Under the pieces are notes generated by a model that was not told where the DNA came from, searched no databases, and saw only the letters and a list, made by a program, of their open reading frames with translations. DNA of 64,000 nucleotides from Gautieria morchelliformis (lineage: Eukaryota > Basidiomycota > Agaricomycetes > Gomphales > Gomphaceae): NCBI GenBank assembly GCA_015179125.1, contig WHVA01000138.1, forward strand, positions 124,001-188,000. Direction: 5' to 3'. The translations under genes were made by a program, and so were the position numbers. Positions 3,976 through 59,138 of the stretch are shown here, piece after piece; position 1 is the first letter of the stretch; each line of letters opens with the position of its first letter.

Positions 3976-4222
3976 TGTCATGACCTGTCTATTTCTCTTA
4001 CCCCACTGTCTCTATGCTCCCTCTCGTCACTCCCTAGCATCTTCGCCAGAGTTCGCCACAACCACCGACCACTCCCCTTCTACGTCCACTCTACCCGCTG
4101 TTCGCCCCATTCTCTGAACCACTATTTGCTGCTCGCGCATTTCGCCAGCAGGCACGCCATCAAATACGATCGATACCATTCACCCGGCATGATGGTTCAT
4201 CATTAACCCCATCATCTTCTTA

Positions 4223-4940
4223 CACCCGTTTGCAGTACCTAAGGCGCGCGTCGGATTTGCTTCCGTTTTAGCGTGCAAACTTCGAACAACGATATCTTGC
4301 TTGATATCGCTCCGATTCGCTTGAAATTTCATATCTGAAGCTATGTGGACCATAGCTAGGGCATAGAACTAAAAAATCCGAATAAAACAAGCATTTTTTA
4401 TTTTGCATTTTGGGTGCTGAGGGGGGAACAATGTCAAGCTTAGCTTACTGTATGTAGTTCAATGCAGGTTTTAATTTTGTTTGCTACTTTGTACTAATGG
4501 TGAGAACCCACTACAGGAGAATCTCCAGAAGAGGGTGTCATAGGATTGGAGAGGAAGGGCTTAGCTTCTTCTGACATTGGATCAGTGAGATCTGACGGTA
4601 GGCGTTCATTCTCAATGTTGGATTTCCTCCTGTGTAGCATAAGCCCCGAAATCTTTGATCCCTTCCGCACCGAGTGCCAATGCACCATAAGGCAACTTCG
4701 CCGATCCTGACACGTTCTTGAGCTCGGAAACCACGGGGGCGCACGCGTATGCGGTGGGGTGAGGGGCGCGGAGGTGCTGGGGTGGGCGAGCTGGTATAGG
4801 AGGACGGTGTGGTGGGGGAGCGGGCGGCGGCGGGTGCGGGTGCGGGTGCAGGTGCGGGTGCGGGTGGGGGTGCAGGTACGGGTGCAGGTACGGGTGCAGG
4901 TACGGGTGCAGGTACGGGTGCAGGTGCGGGTGCGATTGCA
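4223..4940 (+). repeat. Left terminal inverted repeat of the Tc1 element
   Basis: Matches the reverse complement of 10725 to about 10000. About 590 bp (4223-4815) is non-repetitive and nearly identical between the arms, with only a few differences such as TAGCGTG versus TAGCACG. It then continues into a GC-rich 6/12-bp tandem array (GGTGCG/GGTGCA/GGTACG). The inner boundary is inside the array and cannot be fixed. Near-identity of the arms suggests recent activity. Confidence 0.9.
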
Positions 4941-5192
4941 GCACGGACGACACGGAGCTCATCGTGAGGAGACTGGGCATACGGTTAGCAGGGTGCGGGG
5001 GCGTCGACACACCTTGACACCCAGGGGACTCCACGCAGGGGACATGGGGGATACCGGCCCAAATGGCAGCCGGTAGAGGGACGGGAGCGCGGACGTGACA
5101 CGACTGGGCTGGCGGCCCTCGAGGCGTGCGAGGGCGTCGCCGCGGTTGGTGTTGCGGTAGCGCGTGGAGGCGCGGGACGTGGCGGTGGTCAT
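4612..5192 (-). other. Unrecognised coding-like sequence at left arm
   Basis: Minus-strand open frames run from a basic segment (TRYRNTNRGDALARLEGR, near 5160-5100) through a His/Pro repeat encoded by the GC-rich array. They end with SELKNVSGSAKLPYGALALG inside the inverted repeat. A second frame in the arm reads ENERLPSDLTDP and AKPFLSNPMTPSSGDSPVV before a stop at 4494. It could be a captured host gene end or chance coding in GC-rich DNA. I recognise no family. Confidence 0.3.
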
Positions 5193-5556
5193 TGTGAGGG
5201 TGTTGACGGTAGGAGTGATGGAGCCGCGGTCAGTTGGGGTGCGGGTGGACGACAGGAAGGAACTGCTCGTGCTTGTACGAGTAGAAGGGGCGCTTCAAGT
5301 CACAATGGTGGACTTGTAGTTGGGACGCGTGACAGCCCTTTCAGCGAGGATGTAAAGTAAGCATAAGTAGCAAACTCACCAATAAAAACGGGATAGTGGC
5401 CATTCGACACCTGAAAATTACACTTGAGTTGGGGTTCAGCATTGGGAGTAAGGGTGCAAATGCTGTCGCACGATTCATGTCATAGAATTCTTGGTCAGGG
5501 TGTGTGTTTTGGGAACTTCCGTTCTCCTTGTATGTACTACCCACACCATCGCTCAT

Positions 5557-6762
5557 ATGCCTCGCCCTGGCAACCCTAAACCTGTTCGTCACATGTACAG
5601 CAAGGATCTGCGGGATCGCGTTATACACCAAAAATTCAAGCTCAACAAGAAATCAACCGATATTGCAATTGACCTCGATATGTCACTATGTGTAGTTCAA
5701 CGCACAATCAAACTCTGGCGGGATGTTGGAGACGTCGTGGCAGAGCCAAAGCGGCTATCTCATGGGTCAAAAATGACCTCAGCTCAGAGTGAAGTAAGTA
5801 ATTCATGTCTGTGTTTAGCTGTAGCTTATTTTATTTTATAACAGTTTCTTCTTGCGCTTCTTGAACGCTCGCCCGATCTTTACCTCGATGAGCTTGTCGA
5901 AGAGCTAGAGGTGCAGCATGGTATTTTAGTAAGTATATCAACTGTCTGGAGGACGCTTCGACATCTTGGCTTGCAAAGAAAGAAAGTGAGTCATTAAATC
6001 CTCGAAGAATGACAACCTCTATATTTGTCTCCAACCCAGCTTTCACGGGCAGCCGCAGAGCGCTGTGAAGCCTCGCGGACTGCTTTCCAGTTTCGTATTG
6101 GTAGTGAACCACCGGACCGTTTGGTTTTCACAGATGAAAGCGCAATTGACCTTCGCACAACGTATAGACTAATGGGATGGGCTTACAAGGGATGTAGGCC
6201 TCGAGTGCGAGCACGTTTCCAAAGGGGCGAAAGGTAACGATTTGTGCACGGGCCTCCATTATTGTATCGCTAATATCCACTCAGATTTTCAATCCTTCCG
6301 GCGCTCTCACAAGATGGAATCATCTATAGCCATATCAAATTAGGGGCATACGATGGTCCAGAGTTCCTTGGGTTTCTGAAGGGCCTTTTAGAGGTAATGA
6401 ACCCTTACCCAGCACCACAGAGCGTTCTTGTTATGGATAACTGCGCCATTCACCACATACCTGAGGTCTCACTCTTATGTGCCCAAAGGTTTTTACCATT
6501 ATAAACTGTTTTCACTTGTGTCTAATCTTGCATTTGCAGAGGAATCAAACTGATGTATCTTCCGCCGTACTCGCCCGATCTCAACCCGATCGAAGAATCA
6601 TTCTCCTTCATCAAAGCTCACCTCAGACGTCATGGTGCCGAGTTCCGTGCATGTGTTGCAAGTAAGGAGAGGGCTGGGCTATTCATGTTTCTCTACGAGG
6701 CACTGGATCGGATTACACGCAGACATGCGCGAGGGTGGATGAAGGACTGTGGCTATCTGTAG
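5557..6762 (+). CDS. Tc1-like DD34E transposase
   Basis: Five exons (5557-5793, 5845-5985, 6040-6233, 6285-6488, 6540-6762) joined by GT-AG introns of 51-54 bp give 999 coding bases, or 332 residues, with no internal stop. An N-terminal helix-turn-helix (KDLRDRVI..STDIAIDLDMSLCVVQRTI, residues about 12-55) is followed by a second Tc1-type segment (VSISTVWRTLRHLGLQRKK). The catalytic residues are D in VFTDES, D in VLVMDNCAIHH, and E in DLNPIEESF, with 34 residues between the second D and the E. It would excise and reinsert the element through its inverted repeats at TA. Donor GTTTTT of the last intron is non-consensus but preserves the motif frame. Confidence 0.9.
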
Positions 6763-6993
6763 TGCAGTTGTACTACTGTAATGTAATTTTTTTGTTGTCA
6801 GAATGTTGAAAATTATCTGCAATGTGATGGATGATATTGGTAAACAACACTTAGTAGTGCAAAAAGTACTCATTGGCCAATTACGTGCGTCGAGTATCGT
6901 AGTATTGTGATAATTCCTACAGTGGCTACAGGATCTCATAATATTATATGCGTTACATGTGGTCTTTCCCAGCTCATCCTCTCTCTTCACCTG
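6763..6993. other. Spacer between convergent transposase and kinase genes
   Basis: AT-rich 231-bp spacer between the 3' ends of the transposase (plus) and the kinase gene (minus). It presumably holds both polyadenylation regions. I see no further gene. Confidence 0.5.
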
Positions 6994-9250
6994 TCATTTC
7001 CCCTCATTAACATAATCCCAACTCTCTGGCAGGTCTGAAAGAGATTCAAGCCCAATCGTTACATACTGCCCGTATGGCTTGGTGGCCTGTAAAGTGTACT
7101 CATCGGCGTTCACCTTAACGAAGTCTGGTGTCAGCCATTCCAGAGCAGTCTCCCGAGAAAGCGTTAACCATTGAATCAAGAGTTCGGAGAATGGCTTGAA
7201 GCCCGTGGAGAAGTTTTTCGCGGCATCCTGTTGCTTTAACCTATCAAGGAAACTTCCCCTAGCTTGTAACACAGGTAACTCGTCGGAGAGCATCGTTTGA
7301 CGGTAATTCTGTTCTAGTCGCCCGAGTGCCCCCTTGGTCTCCAGAATCTCCAGAATCGACCAAAATAAAACCCATATAAACGACTCCAGGTCATCAATTA
7401 CTTGGTGCACAACTTGCGTTCCAGAGTCCCAAGCAACAATCAGCGCCTGAGACATGAAAGGCAGCGTACCCTAGAACCATGTAAATCACAAGCCGCACAC
7501 AGCAACTAAAGACCCACCGAGCGATGCTTTGCTAATTCCCGCTTCTGATCCATCCAACGAATCACCTGGTCCCCATCGCATATGAATCCCACACATCTAG
7601 TAACTTCTCGAGTCACGGCAAAACTGAAGCAAACATAAAAAAATGAAAGGACTGATGTGAAAGACGGTACGTACTCTGCCACAGGCGGCCGCTCAGCTTC
7701 ATCCATCAGCATGACGTTCCCGACGCTTACGTCGCGGTGCAACCAGCCGTTCTTAAACAGCCCAAAATGCCCTGTCGATCACCATTATAGGTAAATCATG
7801 TCCGATGCCCTCTTCGTTCACATACCCAACATGGCGTGCACTATGCAACGCACGAGCAATCGAGGACTTTGTGCAGCTCACAGTGACGTCCCTCGGGTCT
7901 CAAAAACAGATCGCATATGTATTCGTTCGTCAGGCCTAACCCCGGCATATGGCTCTGGCGCACACGGGCAAATATGTTGCGTCATCAGGTATGAGCTTAT
8001 CCATTCCGTCCTCAACAGGGTATGAGACAAGGATGTCTGGCAGTCCAAATCCGCCCGATAACGCTCCAAACATTATGCCTTCTTCGTTATGGGTTTTCAA
8101 TGGCCATGAATCTTTCAGAATGACAGTGTCCGGCAAGAGAAAAGATATGCCTCCCTTCAACCTCAAGGGTTCTCGACCGTCAGTCTCTTTTCCAGGCTGA
8201 GAACGCGGGGGTTGGTGACTTCGTAAGTTATACCGGTGAGTGGACGAAGGTTGAGCGGGAGAACCATCGGTGGCGGTTGCATCTTCAAACCCAATTGTTA
8301 ACTACTGGCCCAGATCTCTAAACGTCAAAACGCACCCTTCTTGACCAAAAGATACACACGTGTTGCTCGTCCGCGAACGCAACGTCGGTCACAAAGTGTT
8401 TTCGAAATCTTGAATATACCCCTCTCGGGAATCGCAATGTCTGTGATGGTACGAGTAGTATCGATTCCAGCGTGGTTTGTGTCGGTCCAAGAATTAATCC
8501 CAACCACTCCGCGGACAAATCCTTTAAAGCCTCCCTCCTTCGAGAGGTCAAGTTCCGGCGTAACAACCAGACCCATGCGAGAATAAAATCCGAAGCGCAC
8601 CCCCATCGTTGCGTTGTTGAAATGGATAACAGTGACGAAGAGTCTATCCAATCGGTGTGTGAACATACAGCGGGCGTACGTGCTTGACTGCAGGATCAAA
8701 CCAGGCCAGTTCTTCTTCACCTCTATGCAAATTTCAGCCTCGTTCCATGAGAACTTCGGCTTTGAGCCTCAGCTCTCACCAACAGACTGACAACCAACAA
8801 GGTCTGGTTTTAGGGGGGAGTCTGTGTCAAGTCCTTCATCCATTTCCCGACCGTTCACGTAAAACTGAAGACCTCGGTGGATATTGCCATTCGGCAGCTT
8901 TTGGGAGGAGATGGACAGAATCTGGTTGAGTAACCACTCCAACGGCGCATAATGAGCGCTTTCTGGACCAGTGCGGCTGGGCCATTCCTTGAAAGTCTCG
9001 GTTGGGCTGTCCAGAACACGCCAGGTTTCAGTTTGGATAGGACAGCGTCGACAATTTTTTGAGCCGCCCGACAGCGCTCTTCAAGCAGAGAATTACTCTC
9101 GAATATCGCACCGGAGAACTCGCCCTTCATCAGCTTTTTCAAATCATCCTGGGTCCGAATGTGTGATTCATGAGATTTACTGGAACTGGTGCTATATGGT
9201 GTGCTCGTCATCAACGGAAGCTTGAGAGATTGGGGCGGTGTTGATGGCAT
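6994..9250 (-). CDS. FunK1-type fungal protein kinase, transposon cargo
   Basis: Minus strand, start ATG at 9250, stop at 6994. FunK1 landmarks in order: an N-terminal region (SHESHIRTQDDLKKLMKGEF); EICIEVKKNW then SSTYARCMFTHRLDRLFV (8740-8650); a glycine-rich FYSRMGLVVTPELD with FVRGVVGINSW; ISFLLPDTVILKDSWPLK (8150-8100); catalytic loop GWLHRDVSVGNVML near 7745-7700; and the C-terminal HQVIDDLESFIWVLFW block near 7400. The junction upstream of the catalytic loop splices cleanly across a 54-bp GT-AG intron. Two defects: a frame change near 9020 and an in-frame TGA near 8770. I cannot tell whether these are unrecognised introns or inactivating mutations. FunK1 enzymes are predicted Ser/Thr kinases of unknown substrate. 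Confidence 0.82.
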
Positions 9251-9580
9251 CTGGAATAACAAATATCGAGAATTAGAGGCAGACAACAAGTAAAGAACTA
9301 TGTTGTGCGAGTCTGAGAGGCAGAGCTGTTGTCAACATGCGGACAAGTCACGTGACAAGTGAACCATCTACATTCGTGCGGTGTGTTGGTGGTAGCGGCC
9401 TCAAGGTTAAATACCAATAATGTGCCGTGCGCTGCCTCAGACAGTACTAAGGCCGCCGATCTCAAATATCCATAATTCTCTAAATTGTTCCTTTTGATGT
9501 ATATAGTAAATCTAATTATTGTGTCCTACTGGCATAATTCCAGCTCGCCCACCCCAGCACCTCCGCGCCCCTCACCCCGC
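9251..9580. promoter_or_regulatory. Likely 5' region of the kinase cargo gene
   Basis: About 330 bp lies between the kinase start and the right arm. It contains GTCACGTGAC near 9349, a palindrome with a CACGTG core. No ORF of note. A 5' untranslated intron ending TTCCAG directly before the ATG is possible. Confidence 0.35.
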
Positions 9581-9599
9581 CGCGTACGCGTGCGCCCCC

Positions 9600-10130
9600 C
9601 GCGTCCTTCGCGTCGTCGCCCAACCCGTCCCCGCACCTGCGCCCGTACCTGCACCCGCACCCGCACCCGCACCCGCACCCGCCGCCGCCCGCTTCCCCAC
9701 CACCCCGTCCTCCTACACCAGCTCGCCCACCTCCGCCCCTGCGTCCTTCGCGTCGCCGCCCAACCCGTCCCTGCACCCGCACCCGCACCTGCACCCGCAC
9801 CTGCACCCGCACCCGTACCTGCACCCGCACCCGCACCTGCGCCCATACCTGCACCCGCACCCGCACCCGCCGCCGCCCGCTTCCCCACCACCCCGTCCTC
9901 CTACACCAGCTCGCCCACCTCTGCCCCCGCGTCCTTCGCGTTGCCGCCCAACCCATCCCTGCACCCGCACCTGCACCTGCACCCGCACCTGCACCCGCAT
10001 CTGCACCCGTACTTGCACCCGCACCTGTACCTGCACCCGCACCTGCACCCGCACCTGCACCCACACCCGCACCCGCACCTGCACCCGCACCTGCACCTGC
10101 ACCCGCACCCGCACCCGCTGCCGCCCGCTC
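9600..10130 (+). repeat. GC-rich 6/12-bp minisatellite in right arm
   Basis: Tandem CACCCG/CACCTG units, often paired as a 12-mer, lie in three blocks. They are separated by repeated GCCGCCCGCTTCCCCACC and CCGTCCTCC segments. In translation they give Pro/Ala, His/Pro or Arg/Thr repeats on both strands, which explains the long overlapping reading frames here. A shorter version occurs in the left arm at about 4815-4935. Confidence 0.9.
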
Positions 10131-10725
10131 CCCCACCACCCCGTCCTCCTATACCAGCTCGCCCACCCCAGCACCTCCGCGCCCCTCACCCCACCGCATA
10201 CGCATGCGCCCCCGCAGTTTCTGAGCTCAAGAACGTGTCAGGATCGGCGAAGTTGCCTTATGGTGCATTGGCACTCGGTGCGGAAGGGATCAAAGATTTC
10301 GGGGCTTATGCTACACAGGAGGAAATCCAACATTGAGAATGAACGCCTACCGTCAGATCTCACTGATCCAATGTCAGAAGAAGCTAAGCCCTTCCTCTCC
10401 AATCCTATGACACCCTCTTCTGGAGATTCTCCTGTAGTGGGTTCTCACCATTAGTACAAAGTAGCAAACAAAATTAAAACCTGCATTGAACTACATACAG
10501 TAAGCTAAGCTTGACATTGTTCCCCCCTCAGCACCCAAAATGCAAAATAAAAAATGCTTGTTTTATTCGGATTTTTTAGTTCTATGCCCTAGCTATGGTC
10601 CACATAGCTTCAGATATGAAATTTCAAGCGAATCGGAGCGATATCAAGCAAGATATCGTTGTTCGAAGTTTGCGTGCTAAAATGGAAGCAAATCCGACGC
10701 GCGCCTTAGGTACTGCAAACGGGTG
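9990..10725 (-). repeat. Right terminal inverted repeat of the Tc1 element
   Basis: Inverted copy of 4223-4940. The unique part is 10140-10725 and includes the same coding-like tail (SELKNVSGSAKLPYGALALG to a stop at 10336; a second frame to 10454). The outer end is GGTACTGCAAACGGGTG followed by TA. Confidence 0.9.
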
Positions 10726-11517
10726 TAATCCAACCCCATTGGGTGTTCGTATGGCCAAAGTGTGTTCGCAGGACGTCCCTTCCATAGGTTGTGCTGGATC
10801 AACCCAGTAAAAGAAGAGTCCGTGCAGGGTAGCATGTATGCGGGTCCCAAGACATGATTTTGTCCATAAGTGCCTTTGCCACCTTTATTTTCCATCATTT
10901 CATGTTCACATTCTTCCCTCACTCTACTGTATGTTTATTCCATCTACTTGGTATCATGACTGCGCACCCCTATCCGACCCTGACTCACGACGGCCTCTTT
11001 CCTATTCGCTAAATACCTTGCGAGCATTCGATATAAGTAGTTTACATTCGCATGTATATTCCCTAGTTCAATTATCATACGTCGTCCATCTTGTGCAAAC
11101 TTGACCTCGCTGTGATCATCATCTTGGGCCTTCTCTTGGAGATTTCTATCTTCAACCAGCAGAGGACTTAGGCATCACTGGTGAGTTCTCATACTTCGTC
11201 TTCGTTACCCTAGCCTTTGAACTATTCTCTGTGCTGTTGGCGAAGGGCTCTGAAGGAGCACCTTTGCCGGCGAAGGGATTGTCGAGACTTAGACAGCCCT
11301 TCCGTGAGACCTTGCACGTTACATCGTCAAGTACCACGGGCCATTTTGCTACAACTGTAGATAGGGTGAGCCCCGTTCGGGCAGCCCTCTTATCTTGTGA
11401 ACATTTATTGGTTCACCTATTCGCCGAACGGCATACTTATTCGCACAAGTCATTTGGGCATTCGCTGTGTTCACTAATACACGATATTAACGTCTAAAAA
11501 CCAATCTTGACACATTG

Positions 11518-40688: not shown

Positions 40689-42689
40689 CTGTCATGACTC
40701 GTTTATTTCTTGTGTCCAGTAACTCCATTCTCCCTTTCGTCACCCCACTTCTATGTTCACTCCTTTTGCTGTTCGCCGAATTTGCCGAACAGTTATTCGC
40801 TACTCGCATCATTTGCCAGTAGGCTGTCAAGATTGGTTTTTAGGCATTAATATCGTGTATTAGTGAACACAGCGAATGCCCGAATGTCTTGTGCGAATAA
40901 GTATGCCATTCGGCGAATGTGTGAACCAATGAATGTTCACAAGATAGGAGGGTTGCTCGAACGGGGCGCGCCCTATCAACAGTCGTAGCGAAATGGCCCG
41001 TGGCACTTGATGATACAATGTGCAAGGTGTCACGGAAGGGCCGTCTAAGTAGCCACAATCCCTTCGCCGGCGAAGGTGCTCCTTTGGAGCCCTTCGCCAA
41101 CAGCACAGAAAATAGTTCGAAGGCTAAGGTAACGAAGATGAAGTATGAGAACTCACCAGTGATGCCTAAGTCCTTGGCTGGTCGAAGATAGAAATATTCA
41201 AGGAAAGGCTCAAGACGATGATCACAGCGAGGTCAAGTTTGCACAAGATGGACGACGTATGATAATTGAACTGGGGAATATACATGCAAATGTAAACTAC
41301 TTATATCGAATGCTCGTAAGGTATCAGCGAATAGGAAAGAGGCCGTCACGAGTCAGGGTTGGATAGGGGTGCGCAGTCATGATACTAAGTAGATGGAATA
41401 AACATACAATAGAGTGAGGGAAGAATGCGAACATGAAACAACGGAAAATAAAGGTGGCGAAGGCACTTATGGACAAAACCATGTCTTGGGACCCACATAC
41501 ATGCTACCCTGCACGGACTCTTCATTTACTGGGTTGATCCCGCCCGACCTATGGAAGGGATGTCCTGCAAACACACTTTGGCCATACGAACACCCAATGG
41601 GGTTGGATTAAGAAGATGATGGGGTTAATGATGAACCATCATGCCGGGTGAATGGTATCGATCGTATTTGATGGCGTGCCTGCTGGCGAAATGCGCGAGC
41701 AGCGAATAGTGGTTCGGAGAATGGGGCGAACAGCAGGTAGAGTGGATGTAGAGGGGGAGTGGTCGGTGGGTGTGGCGAACTCTGGCGAAGATGCTAGGGA
41801 GTGACGAGAGGGAACATAGAGACAGTGGGGTAATAGAAATAGACAGGTCATGACATAGGCATGCCATCAAACATGATCAACATCCTTTACCCGGCTTGAT
41901 GGTTCATCACTGGTCCCATCATATTCTCGACTCAACCCCCTTTGGGTGTTCCTATGGCTGGAATGCATTCGCGGGACGTCCTACCCATAGATCGTGTAGG
42001 ATCAACCCAGCAGACGAAGAGTCGGTGCAGGGTAACGTGTATGCAGGTCTCAAGGTGTGGTTTCGTACATAGGTACCTTTGCCCTCCTTCCTCTCCATCA
42101 TTTCATGTTTGCACTCCTCTTTCATTCTATTGTATATATGTTTCATCTATTTGCATCATGACTGCACACCCCTATCCAACCCTGACTCAAGACGGCCTCT
42201 TTCCTATTCGCTGATATCATATGAGCATTCGATATAAGTAGTTTACATTCGCTTGTATATTCCCCAGTTCAATTATCATACGTCTATCTTGTGCAAAACT
42301 TGACCTTGCTGTGACCATCATCTTGAGCCCTCTCCTATAGATTTCTATCTTCGACCAGAGGAGGACTTAAGCACCACTGGTGAGTTTTCATGCTTCACCT
42401 TCGTTACCTTAGTCTGCACTGTCGGTGAAGGGCTCGGAAGGAGCACATTCGCCAACGAAAGGATTGTTGCTGCTGAACAACCTTTCCATGACACCTTGCA
42501 CGTTACATCGTCAAGTGTCATGGGCTACTTTGCTACGACTGTAGATAGGGCGAGCTCCATTCAGGCAGCCCTCTTACCTTCTGAACACTCATTCTATTCA
42601 CCAAATGGCACACTTCTTCGCACAAGCTATTCGGGCATTCGCTGTGTTCGCTAATACACGATATTAATGCCTAAAAACCAATCTTGACA
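40689..42689 (+). mobile_element. Solo LTR A7 with LTR A6 inside
   Basis: TGTCATGACTCG..ATCTTGACA, duplication GTAGC (40684-40688, 42690-42694) in the integrase gene of Gypsy C. Net length is about 965 bp after removing A6 and one TAGGC. Confidence 0.94.
40825..41855 (-). mobile_element. Solo LTR A6 nested head-on in A7
   Basis: 1031 bp in reverse orientation, duplication TAGGC (40820-40824, 41856-41860). Because it lies opposite to its host LTR of the same family, the locus is a large imperfect inverted repeat. Confidence 0.94.
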
Positions 42690-58106: not shown

Positions 58107-59138
58107 TGTCACGACCGGTTTATTTCTCCTACCGCGCTACCTCTATGTTCCCCCTCGTCACTCCCTAGCATCTTCGCCAGAGTTCGCCGCACCTACCGAC
58201 CACTTCCCCTCTACGTCCACTCTACCCGCTGTTCGCCCCATTCTCTGAACCGCTATTCGCTGCTCGCGCATTTCATCAGCAGGCACGCCATCGAATATGA
58301 TCGATACCATTCACCCGGCATGATGGCTCATCATTAACCCCGTCATCTTCTTAATCCAACCCCATTGGGTGTTCGTATGGCCAAGGTGTGATCGCAGGAC
58401 GTCTCTTCTATAGGTCGTGCAGGATCAACCCAGTAAATGAAGAGTCCGTGCAGGGTAGCATGTATGCGGGTCCCAAGACATGGTTTTGTCCATAAATGCC
58501 TTCGCTCCCTTTATTCTCCGTCATTTCATGTTCGCATTCTCCCCTCACTCTATTGTATGTTTATTCCATCTACCTAGTATCATGACCGCGCACCCCTATC
58601 CAACCCTGACTCACAACACCCTCTTTCCTATTCGCTGATACCTTACGAGCATTCGATATAAGTAGTTTACATTCGCATGTATATTCCCCAGTTCAATTAT
58701 CATACGTCGTTCATCTTGTGCAGCTTTGACCTCGCGGTGGTCATCATCTTAACCCTTCTCTTGGAGATTCCCATCTTCGACTAGCAAAGGACTTAGGCAT
58801 CACTGGTGAGTTCTCATACTTCATCTTCGTTACCTTAGCCTTCGAACCATTTTCTGTGCTGTTGGCGAAGGGCTCCGAAGGAGCACCTTCGCCAGCGAAG
58901 GGATTGTTGAGACTTAGACAGCCCTTCCGTGAGACCTTGCACGTTACATTGTCAAGAGTCACGGGCTATTTCGCTACGACTGTAGATAGGGTGAGCCCCG
59001 TTTAGGCAAACCCTCTTACCTTGTGAACATTCATTGGTTCACCTATTCGCCGAACGGCATACTTATTCGCACAAGTTATTTGGGCATTCGCTGTGTTCAC
59101 TAATACACAATATTAATGCCTAAAAACCAATCTTGACA
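58107..59138 (+). mobile_element. LTR A8, full-length 1032 bp
   Basis: TGTCACGACCGG..AATCTTGACA, complete, with TATA-like ATATAAGTAG near 58658. It is the uninterrupted reference that defines the transposon insertion in A2. Its right end joins directly to a truncated LTR F5, and flanks do not form a duplication. Confidence 0.9.

Follow-up and report, generated by a model that had tools for sequence, protein, structure and literature searches.

The 64,000-nucleotide stretch of Gautieria morchelliformis DNA analysed here (the window, positions 124001-188000 of contig C158) contains at 4223-10725 a Tc1/mariner-type transposon with a FunK1 protein kinase gene inside it. We consider it very likely, with a probability of about 0.9, that this feature belongs to a high-copy IS630/Tc1/mariner family, of which it is a copy with an internal deletion, and that full copies of the family contain a transposase, a third gene and the FunK1 kinase as cargo that joined before the present burst. 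The kinase is a built-in part of the family and not a one-off capture, given that matches to it cluster into 104 loci genome-wide and that 15 of 18 other copies retain the whole kinase region.

The genome searched was that of the window itself (122 Mb in 1113 contigs). The search with the element terminus that the initial annotation had proposed gave, for a 26-nt terminus with up to three mismatches, 239 matches (123 and 116 by strand) versus none for the reversed control, indicating that the element termini are not due to chance. Twenty regions with facing termini on one contig, picked from the first 100 of the 239 places, were examined. Both ends lie inside the region in 16 of them, with lengths of 4.85 to 9.8 kb. 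Two further copies, one in two pieces on C141 (14.5 kb) and one on C150 (10.1 kb, its right end just past the fetched stretch), bring the two-ended copies to 18, while a locus on C981 with ends 21 kb apart was excluded. Besides the window copy, 15 of these 18 have both the kinase region and the third gene in full. The transposase is whole in 13 of the 15, with 0.68 and 0.89 of it in the other two, and 13 of the 15 measure 8.2-9.8 kb, the other two being those of 10.1 and 14.5 kb. The remaining three copies (L039, L045 and L054) are deletion forms in which 0.23, 0.53 and 0.58 of the kinase is left. This count of copies with a whole and with a cut kinase, also proposed in the initial annotation, supports its reading of a Tc1/mariner element with FunK1 inside that has moved en bloc, and adds that the element exists in many copies. 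Its 6.5-kb unit with two genes must be given up, as the family unit is mostly 8-10 kb long with three genes and the window copy is a deletion form.

In the window, the element is bordered by TA at both edges (4221-4222 and 10726-10727), with the tip sequence CACCCGTTTGCAG... starting at 4223 and its inverse copy terminating at 10725. The inverted arms (4220-4933 and 10015-10728) are 714 nt long and 96% identical. The joined flanks align in a single piece, with one gap apiece, to 58107-58925(+) and 41855-41037(-). These two uninterrupted target copies are empty sites that read CTTCTTAATCC, whereas the filled site reads CTTCTTA[element]TAATCC, and therefore the TA inside TTAA was duplicated on insertion. 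Among 56 distinct termini in the fetched loci, TA stands ahead of 54 and TTA ahead of 53, and the sequence beyond TTA varies. The motif CACCCG/CGGGTG occurs 41 times in the 6.5-kb element versus 22 times in the remaining 57.5 kb of the window.

The transposase frame of the window copy has five exons and is stop-free, with introns at 5794-5844, 5986-6039, 6234-6284 and 6489-6539 and with D158, D242 and E277, the last two separated by 34 residues. It matches DDE_3 (2.2e-27) and the IS630 profile NF033545 (7.8e-45, above its cut-off). The database contains 962 related proteins, and among the best 120 of these the named top relatives, from Panaeolus, Sphaerobolus, Pleurotus and Mycena, are 48-64% identical. 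The frame is open in eight of 14 copies, that of the window included. The window copy is in these respects what the initial annotation described, with exact TA-flanked termini, arms of about 600 bp or more (in fact 714 nt), an empty site in the long terminal repeat at 58107, to which a second can be added, and an intact DD34E transposase of 332 residues.

The DDE_3-type transposase with D,D34E, the terminal inverted repeats and the TA target duplication are those of Tc1/mariner (IS630) elements. Such elements are usually small and contain a single gene. The compact single-gene unit, which is usual for the group and not strictly defining, is absent here, given the three genes in 15 of the 18 two-ended copies, and the family also departs from the group in its length of mostly 8-10 kb, its arms of about 0.7 kb with minisatellites and the TTAA context of its insertion.

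Seven near-identical transposase fragments (on C365, C770, C347, C1083, C722, C437 and C14) are 88-89% identical over residues 79-192 and have no element kinase within 8 kb among the matches listed. They may represent a related kinase-free family or pieces within another element; those on C365 and C437 sit within 4 kb of a listed match to the Plavaka transposase (PF18759), which has at least 135 exon-level matches genome-wide (123 of 277 candidates scored).

The kinase belongs to FunK1 by the curated cut-off of PF17667 (24.1 bits), which is exceeded by two minus-strand exons of the window copy (24.4 and 35.1 bits) and, with 120.1 bits, by the spliced gene of copy L053. Its catalytic loop, HRDVS at 7725-7739, has a serine in place of the lysine, which the available passages of PMC3203195 give as a mark of FunK1. 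The window gene contains a 1-bp frameshift near 9010 that is absent from all 14 other aligned copies, and a TGA at 8769-8771 that is a sense codon in 12 of these, the same TGA in one and a gap in one; this copy of the kinase is therefore broken. Thus, the FunK1 gene lies between the arms on the opposite strand (9250-6994), as initially annotated, in a form that no longer encodes an uninterrupted kinase.

At element position 5318, which is 9540 in the window, the copies with the third gene cease to match the window copy; extra DNA there, about 2.1 kb in copy L044, precedes the right arm and holds the third gene on the same strand as the kinase. At the window junction 39 of 40 scored matches end (40 of 395 candidates scored) and no other match spans it, so that the deletion looks private and the window copy looks like an internally deleted form without the third gene. 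The third protein has six database relatives, all from Gautieria morchelliformis and 51-65% identical, and no recognised domain was found in profile searches including Pfam. A SAM-like domain suspected by eye was dropped, having only weak chance matches in PDB and Pfam, and a structure model from the six Gautieria sequences was unusable, with a predicted local distance difference test score (pLDDT) of 35. The last exon of the third gene is open in 10 of 15 copies. A decayed relative of this gene (L059, C332:116300-119299) is by eye nearer to the Gautieria proteins than to the gene of the element, hinting at an older related family; it was rejected as a diverged family member, being a decayed piece with no adjoining element kinase among the matches listed.

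At the 104 kinase loci, the third gene lies within 6 kb of at least 80, in 79 cases on the strand of the kinase, and an opposite-strand transposase lies within 8 kb of at least 60, with both neighbours near at least 50. These counts are lower bounds, obtained from the coordinates of listed transposase matches and termini. The first kinase exon is stop-free throughout in 21 of the 104 loci, counted by rows. The element-kinase matches are 69-100% identical, except for a locus on C981 (39-48%) and a gene on C174 (35%, a 597-aa open frame); a 54% secondary match on C214 overlaps better matches. Judged by these identities, the element kinases form one tight lineage. PF17667 has at least 118 exon-level matches genome-wide (107 of 377 candidates scored). 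The kinase search of the protein database gave 16 proteins, the six best of which, entries labelled lgn, jgi and ena and one Lactarius akahatsu protein, are 31-39% identical, followed by proteins of other Lactarius, Lentinula, Mycena and Fomitopsis. Given that the element kinases are a single lineage and that the non-element loci on C981 and C174 are just 35-48% identical to it, the dispersal of FunK1 genes in general, which the initial annotation had sought to explain by the element, is not accounted for.

A second, distinct FunK1 gene was observed inside a repeat of at least 3 kb (L060, C305:18800-21799). The repeat recurs in 13 rows of 1.2-3.0 kb and 89-100% identity on C305, C332, C981, C207, C257, C482 and C389; two rows on C389 may belong to a single copy that was split. 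Downstream of this gene, a stretch of about 60 bp (L060:2938-2999) is found again on other contigs in 18 rows, in one case, on C599, as an inverted pair with 5.9 kb in between. The repeat may be another FunK1-bearing mobile element or a segmental duplication; a Plavaka transposase was not found beside it among the matches listed.

Several observations weigh against a family with built-in FunK1 cargo. The examined regions were chosen for facing termini and not randomly. Copies L040 (C610) and L041 (C985) have identical 8-bp outer flanks; they may be two alleles or a single insertion that was assembled twice, and a single insertion would leave 17 copies instead of 18. No third gene is listed within 6 kb of 24 of the 104 kinase loci, and 11 have neither third gene, transposase nor terminus among the matches listed. 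The third-gene search gave Gautieria proteins only, whereas the kinase search named none from Gautieria. Finally, the changes among kinase copies look neutral, and the first exon is open in just three of 16 copies, compared with eight of 14 for the transposase (P 0.057). In this exon, the nonsynonymous fraction is 0.702 for single changes versus a neutral expectation of 0.700, and 0.735 for shared changes versus 0.667; values for the last exon of the kinase and for two exons of the third gene fall within neutral ranges, and no excess of silent changes was found in the kinase or the third gene by copy comparison. For the transposase, single changes are slightly below the neutral range (0.639 versus 0.732 expected, 95% range 0.649-0.825), while shared changes are not (0.680 versus 0.702 expected). 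Thus, nothing indicates that the burst required an intact kinase. Over the copies, the majority frame runs for 303 codons without a stop, which suggests that the kinase gene was intact when the burst began. As a separate observation, copies L047 (C267) and L052 (C927) have the right flank TACCGTCT in common and different left flanks, perhaps as a result of recombination between copies.

Starting from the repeated unit, the transposase, the matching ends, the target duplication and the empty sites described above, the following mechanism can be proposed. The family unit consists of arms of about 0.7 kb with GC-rich minisatellites, the DD34E transposase on one strand, and the third gene followed by FunK1 on the other. 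The transposase would cut the unit at its tips and carry all three genes together. The FunK1 gene would have joined before the present burst and been copied along since, most likely as cargo that is not needed in cis for movement; in many copies it has decayed or been deleted.

It is possible, although we regard it as unlikely, that the kinase, the third protein or both have an accessory role in transposition, assisting or controlling the transposase. They might, for instance, phosphorylate it or bind the subterminal repeats rich in CACCCG, much as TnpA binds subterminal repeats in CACTA elements. The presence of both whole genes in 15 of 18 copies would fit such a role, as would the enrichment of CACCCG/CGGGTG in the element and a third protein that is 51-65% identical to Gautieria proteins and whose gene has an open last exon in 10 of 15 copies. 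Nonetheless, neither gene has an excess of silent changes, 31 of the 92 transposase loci listed lack an element kinase within 8 kb among the matches listed, and single-gene relatives are not known to need such helpers.

A selfish cargo is distinctly less probable. Here FunK1 would act as a nuclease-kinase in the manner of SPOK, the nuclease harming and the kinase protecting, so that loss or absence of the element would be costly and the element would spread by drive or addiction. Its basis is the N-terminal domain of FunK1. The motif PD...ExK is found in 16 of 18 FunK1 sequences, P0001 and P0002 being without it, and ExK..QxxxY in 14 of 18, including the element protein. P, D, E, K and Q are invariant in 11 N-domains chosen from 17, with two motif-less ones left out. 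In the predicted structure of a Lactarius FunK1 (pLDDT 76.5), the N-domain has the order helix-strand-strand-strand-helix-strand, with D168 directly ahead of strand 169-172, E195/K197 in strand 190-197 and Q206 in helix 200-217. Together with the motif, this model offers a lead that the PD...ExK...Q of FunK1 N-termini may sit in a PD-(D/E)XK-like topology ahead of the kinase, which would be the domain order of SPOK; the topology was taken from the secondary structure in the model of a single relative, and the structure and N-domain sequence searches gave no nuclease. According to the available passages of PMC6660238, SPOK3 has a predicted PD-(D/E)XK domain with QxxxY followed by a kinase, killing and resistance reside in those domains, and SPOK spore killers travel in a large mobile block in Podospora. 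FunK1 thus resembles SPOK at the motif level alone, and in both cases the gene lies in a moving block. In contrast to SPOK, with which it was compared by described motifs only, the element FunK1 has a different carrier, no cysteine cluster and no known killing activity; C-x3-C-x13-C-x5-H-x7-H before the kinase occurs in none of the 18 sequences, some of which are partial. Sequence searches with the profile of the N-domain, or with the 11 sequences that make it up, found no nuclease family, and side matches to cilia proteins (0.095), NFRKB_winged (0.0029), Gp49 (0.2) and PADLOC PDC-M02A (0.0041) were taken as chance. Structure searches list kinases alone, a weak negative given that one domain fills the list. 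The neutral changes and frequent breakage of the kinase also speak against selfish cargo. The wider proposal, that the family has armed itself with FunK1 as a nuclease-kinase built like SPOK and that FunK1 proteins in general are toxin-antidote proteins that are mobile or linked to drive, is more doubtful still.

That the kinase and the third gene entered jointly as a separate nested insertion is very improbable. The two genes are indeed neighbours on the strand that does not carry the transposase, but in a scan from the transposase to the deletion junction, which left the outer side of the third gene unscanned, only chance-level repeat pairs (13 nt at 85% and 15 nt at 80%) bound the kinase. 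Moreover, in 15 of 18 copies the block sits in the same position, so that any nested insertion predates the burst. The chance that a single copy captured a host kinase in a one-off event, which would agree with the single gene of typical transposons of this kind, is practically negligible in view of the 104 kinase loci, the 15 of 18 copies in which the kinase region is whole, and the distant relation of the other FunK1 loci matched. Neither of these two outcomes, which the initial annotation had named as grounds for abandoning its reading, was therefore encountered.

Compared with known systems, the element kinase is a FunK1 (Pkinase_fungal, PF17667) in its profile score, its HRDxS loop and its N-domain with KPD...EVK, and it is unlike other FunK1 in being transposon-borne at about 104 loci and only 31-39% identical to its six best database proteins. 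Ant1 of Aspergillus niger is a fungal Tc1/mariner-type element that is said to hold host-gene sequence; there it is a gene fragment, whereas here a kinase gene and a third gene are present family-wide. A FunK1 gene inside a transposon is not described in the available parts of the literature on FunK1, Spok and transposable elements, mostly from outside subscription journals, and a FunK1-bearing transposon has no mention in passages of PMC8893723, PMC4215621, PMC6145500, PMC6001611, PMC3203195, PMC4595289, PMC8955403 and PMC6660238. Features of the window copy are collected in Table 1.

Table 1. Coordinates, in window positions, of the transposon copy, its genes and its target sites.
Feature	Position	Strand	Basis
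Interrupted LTR-like repeat (target), left part	3976..4222	+	flank alignment
TA target duplication, left, within TTAA	4221..4222	.	empty/filled comparison; TTA at 53/56 termini
Left terminal inverted repeat, tip CACCCGTTTGCAG	4223..4933	+	arm self-alignment
12-bp GC-rich tandem array in left arm, CGGGTG motif	4830..4933	+	
Transposase gene, 5 exons, 332 aa, DD34E, DDE_3/IS630	5557..6762	+	exon model and profile searches
FunK1 (PF17667) kinase gene, broken here	6994..9250	-	PF17667 search and copy alignment
Kinase catalytic loop HRDxS (7725-7739) and DxD (7566-7577)	7566..7739	-	motif reading
Nuclease-like motif block: LKPD (8799-8810), ExK (8715-8723), QxxxY (8673-8690)	8673..8810	-	motif; fold inferred from relative's model
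Deletion junction; about 2.1 kb including third gene (L044 5598-7280) missing	9540..9541	.	copy alignment
GC-rich tandem arrays, CACCCG motif, within and beside right arm	9623..10118	+	
Right terminal inverted repeat	10015..10725	-	arm self-alignment
TA target duplication, right	10726..10727	.	empty/filled comparison
Interrupted LTR-like repeat (target), right part	10728..11512	+	flank alignment
Second uninterrupted target copy, empty site	40825..41855	-	flank alignment
Uninterrupted target copy, empty site at TTAA	58107..59138	+	flank alignment

Lineage-specific expansions of FunK1, enriched in non-syntenic regions in Paracoccidioides, are described in passages of PMC3203195; the parts available of PMC6001611 name FunK1 among the kinases expanded alongside accessory chromosomes, those of PMC4595289 report its expansion in Blastomyces, and those of PMC8955403 list PF17667 together with KDZ and Plavaka domains. 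A transposon family with FunK1 at about 100 loci provides a concrete route for such an expansion in one lineage, and its transposon-borne copies call for caution when kinomes are counted. No function is known for FunK1 kinases. Should the nuclease-like N-domain prove real, FunK1 function would become testable straight away, and if FunK1 proteins were toxin-antidote proteins, their erratic expansions in mushrooms and dimorphic fungi would be accounted for.

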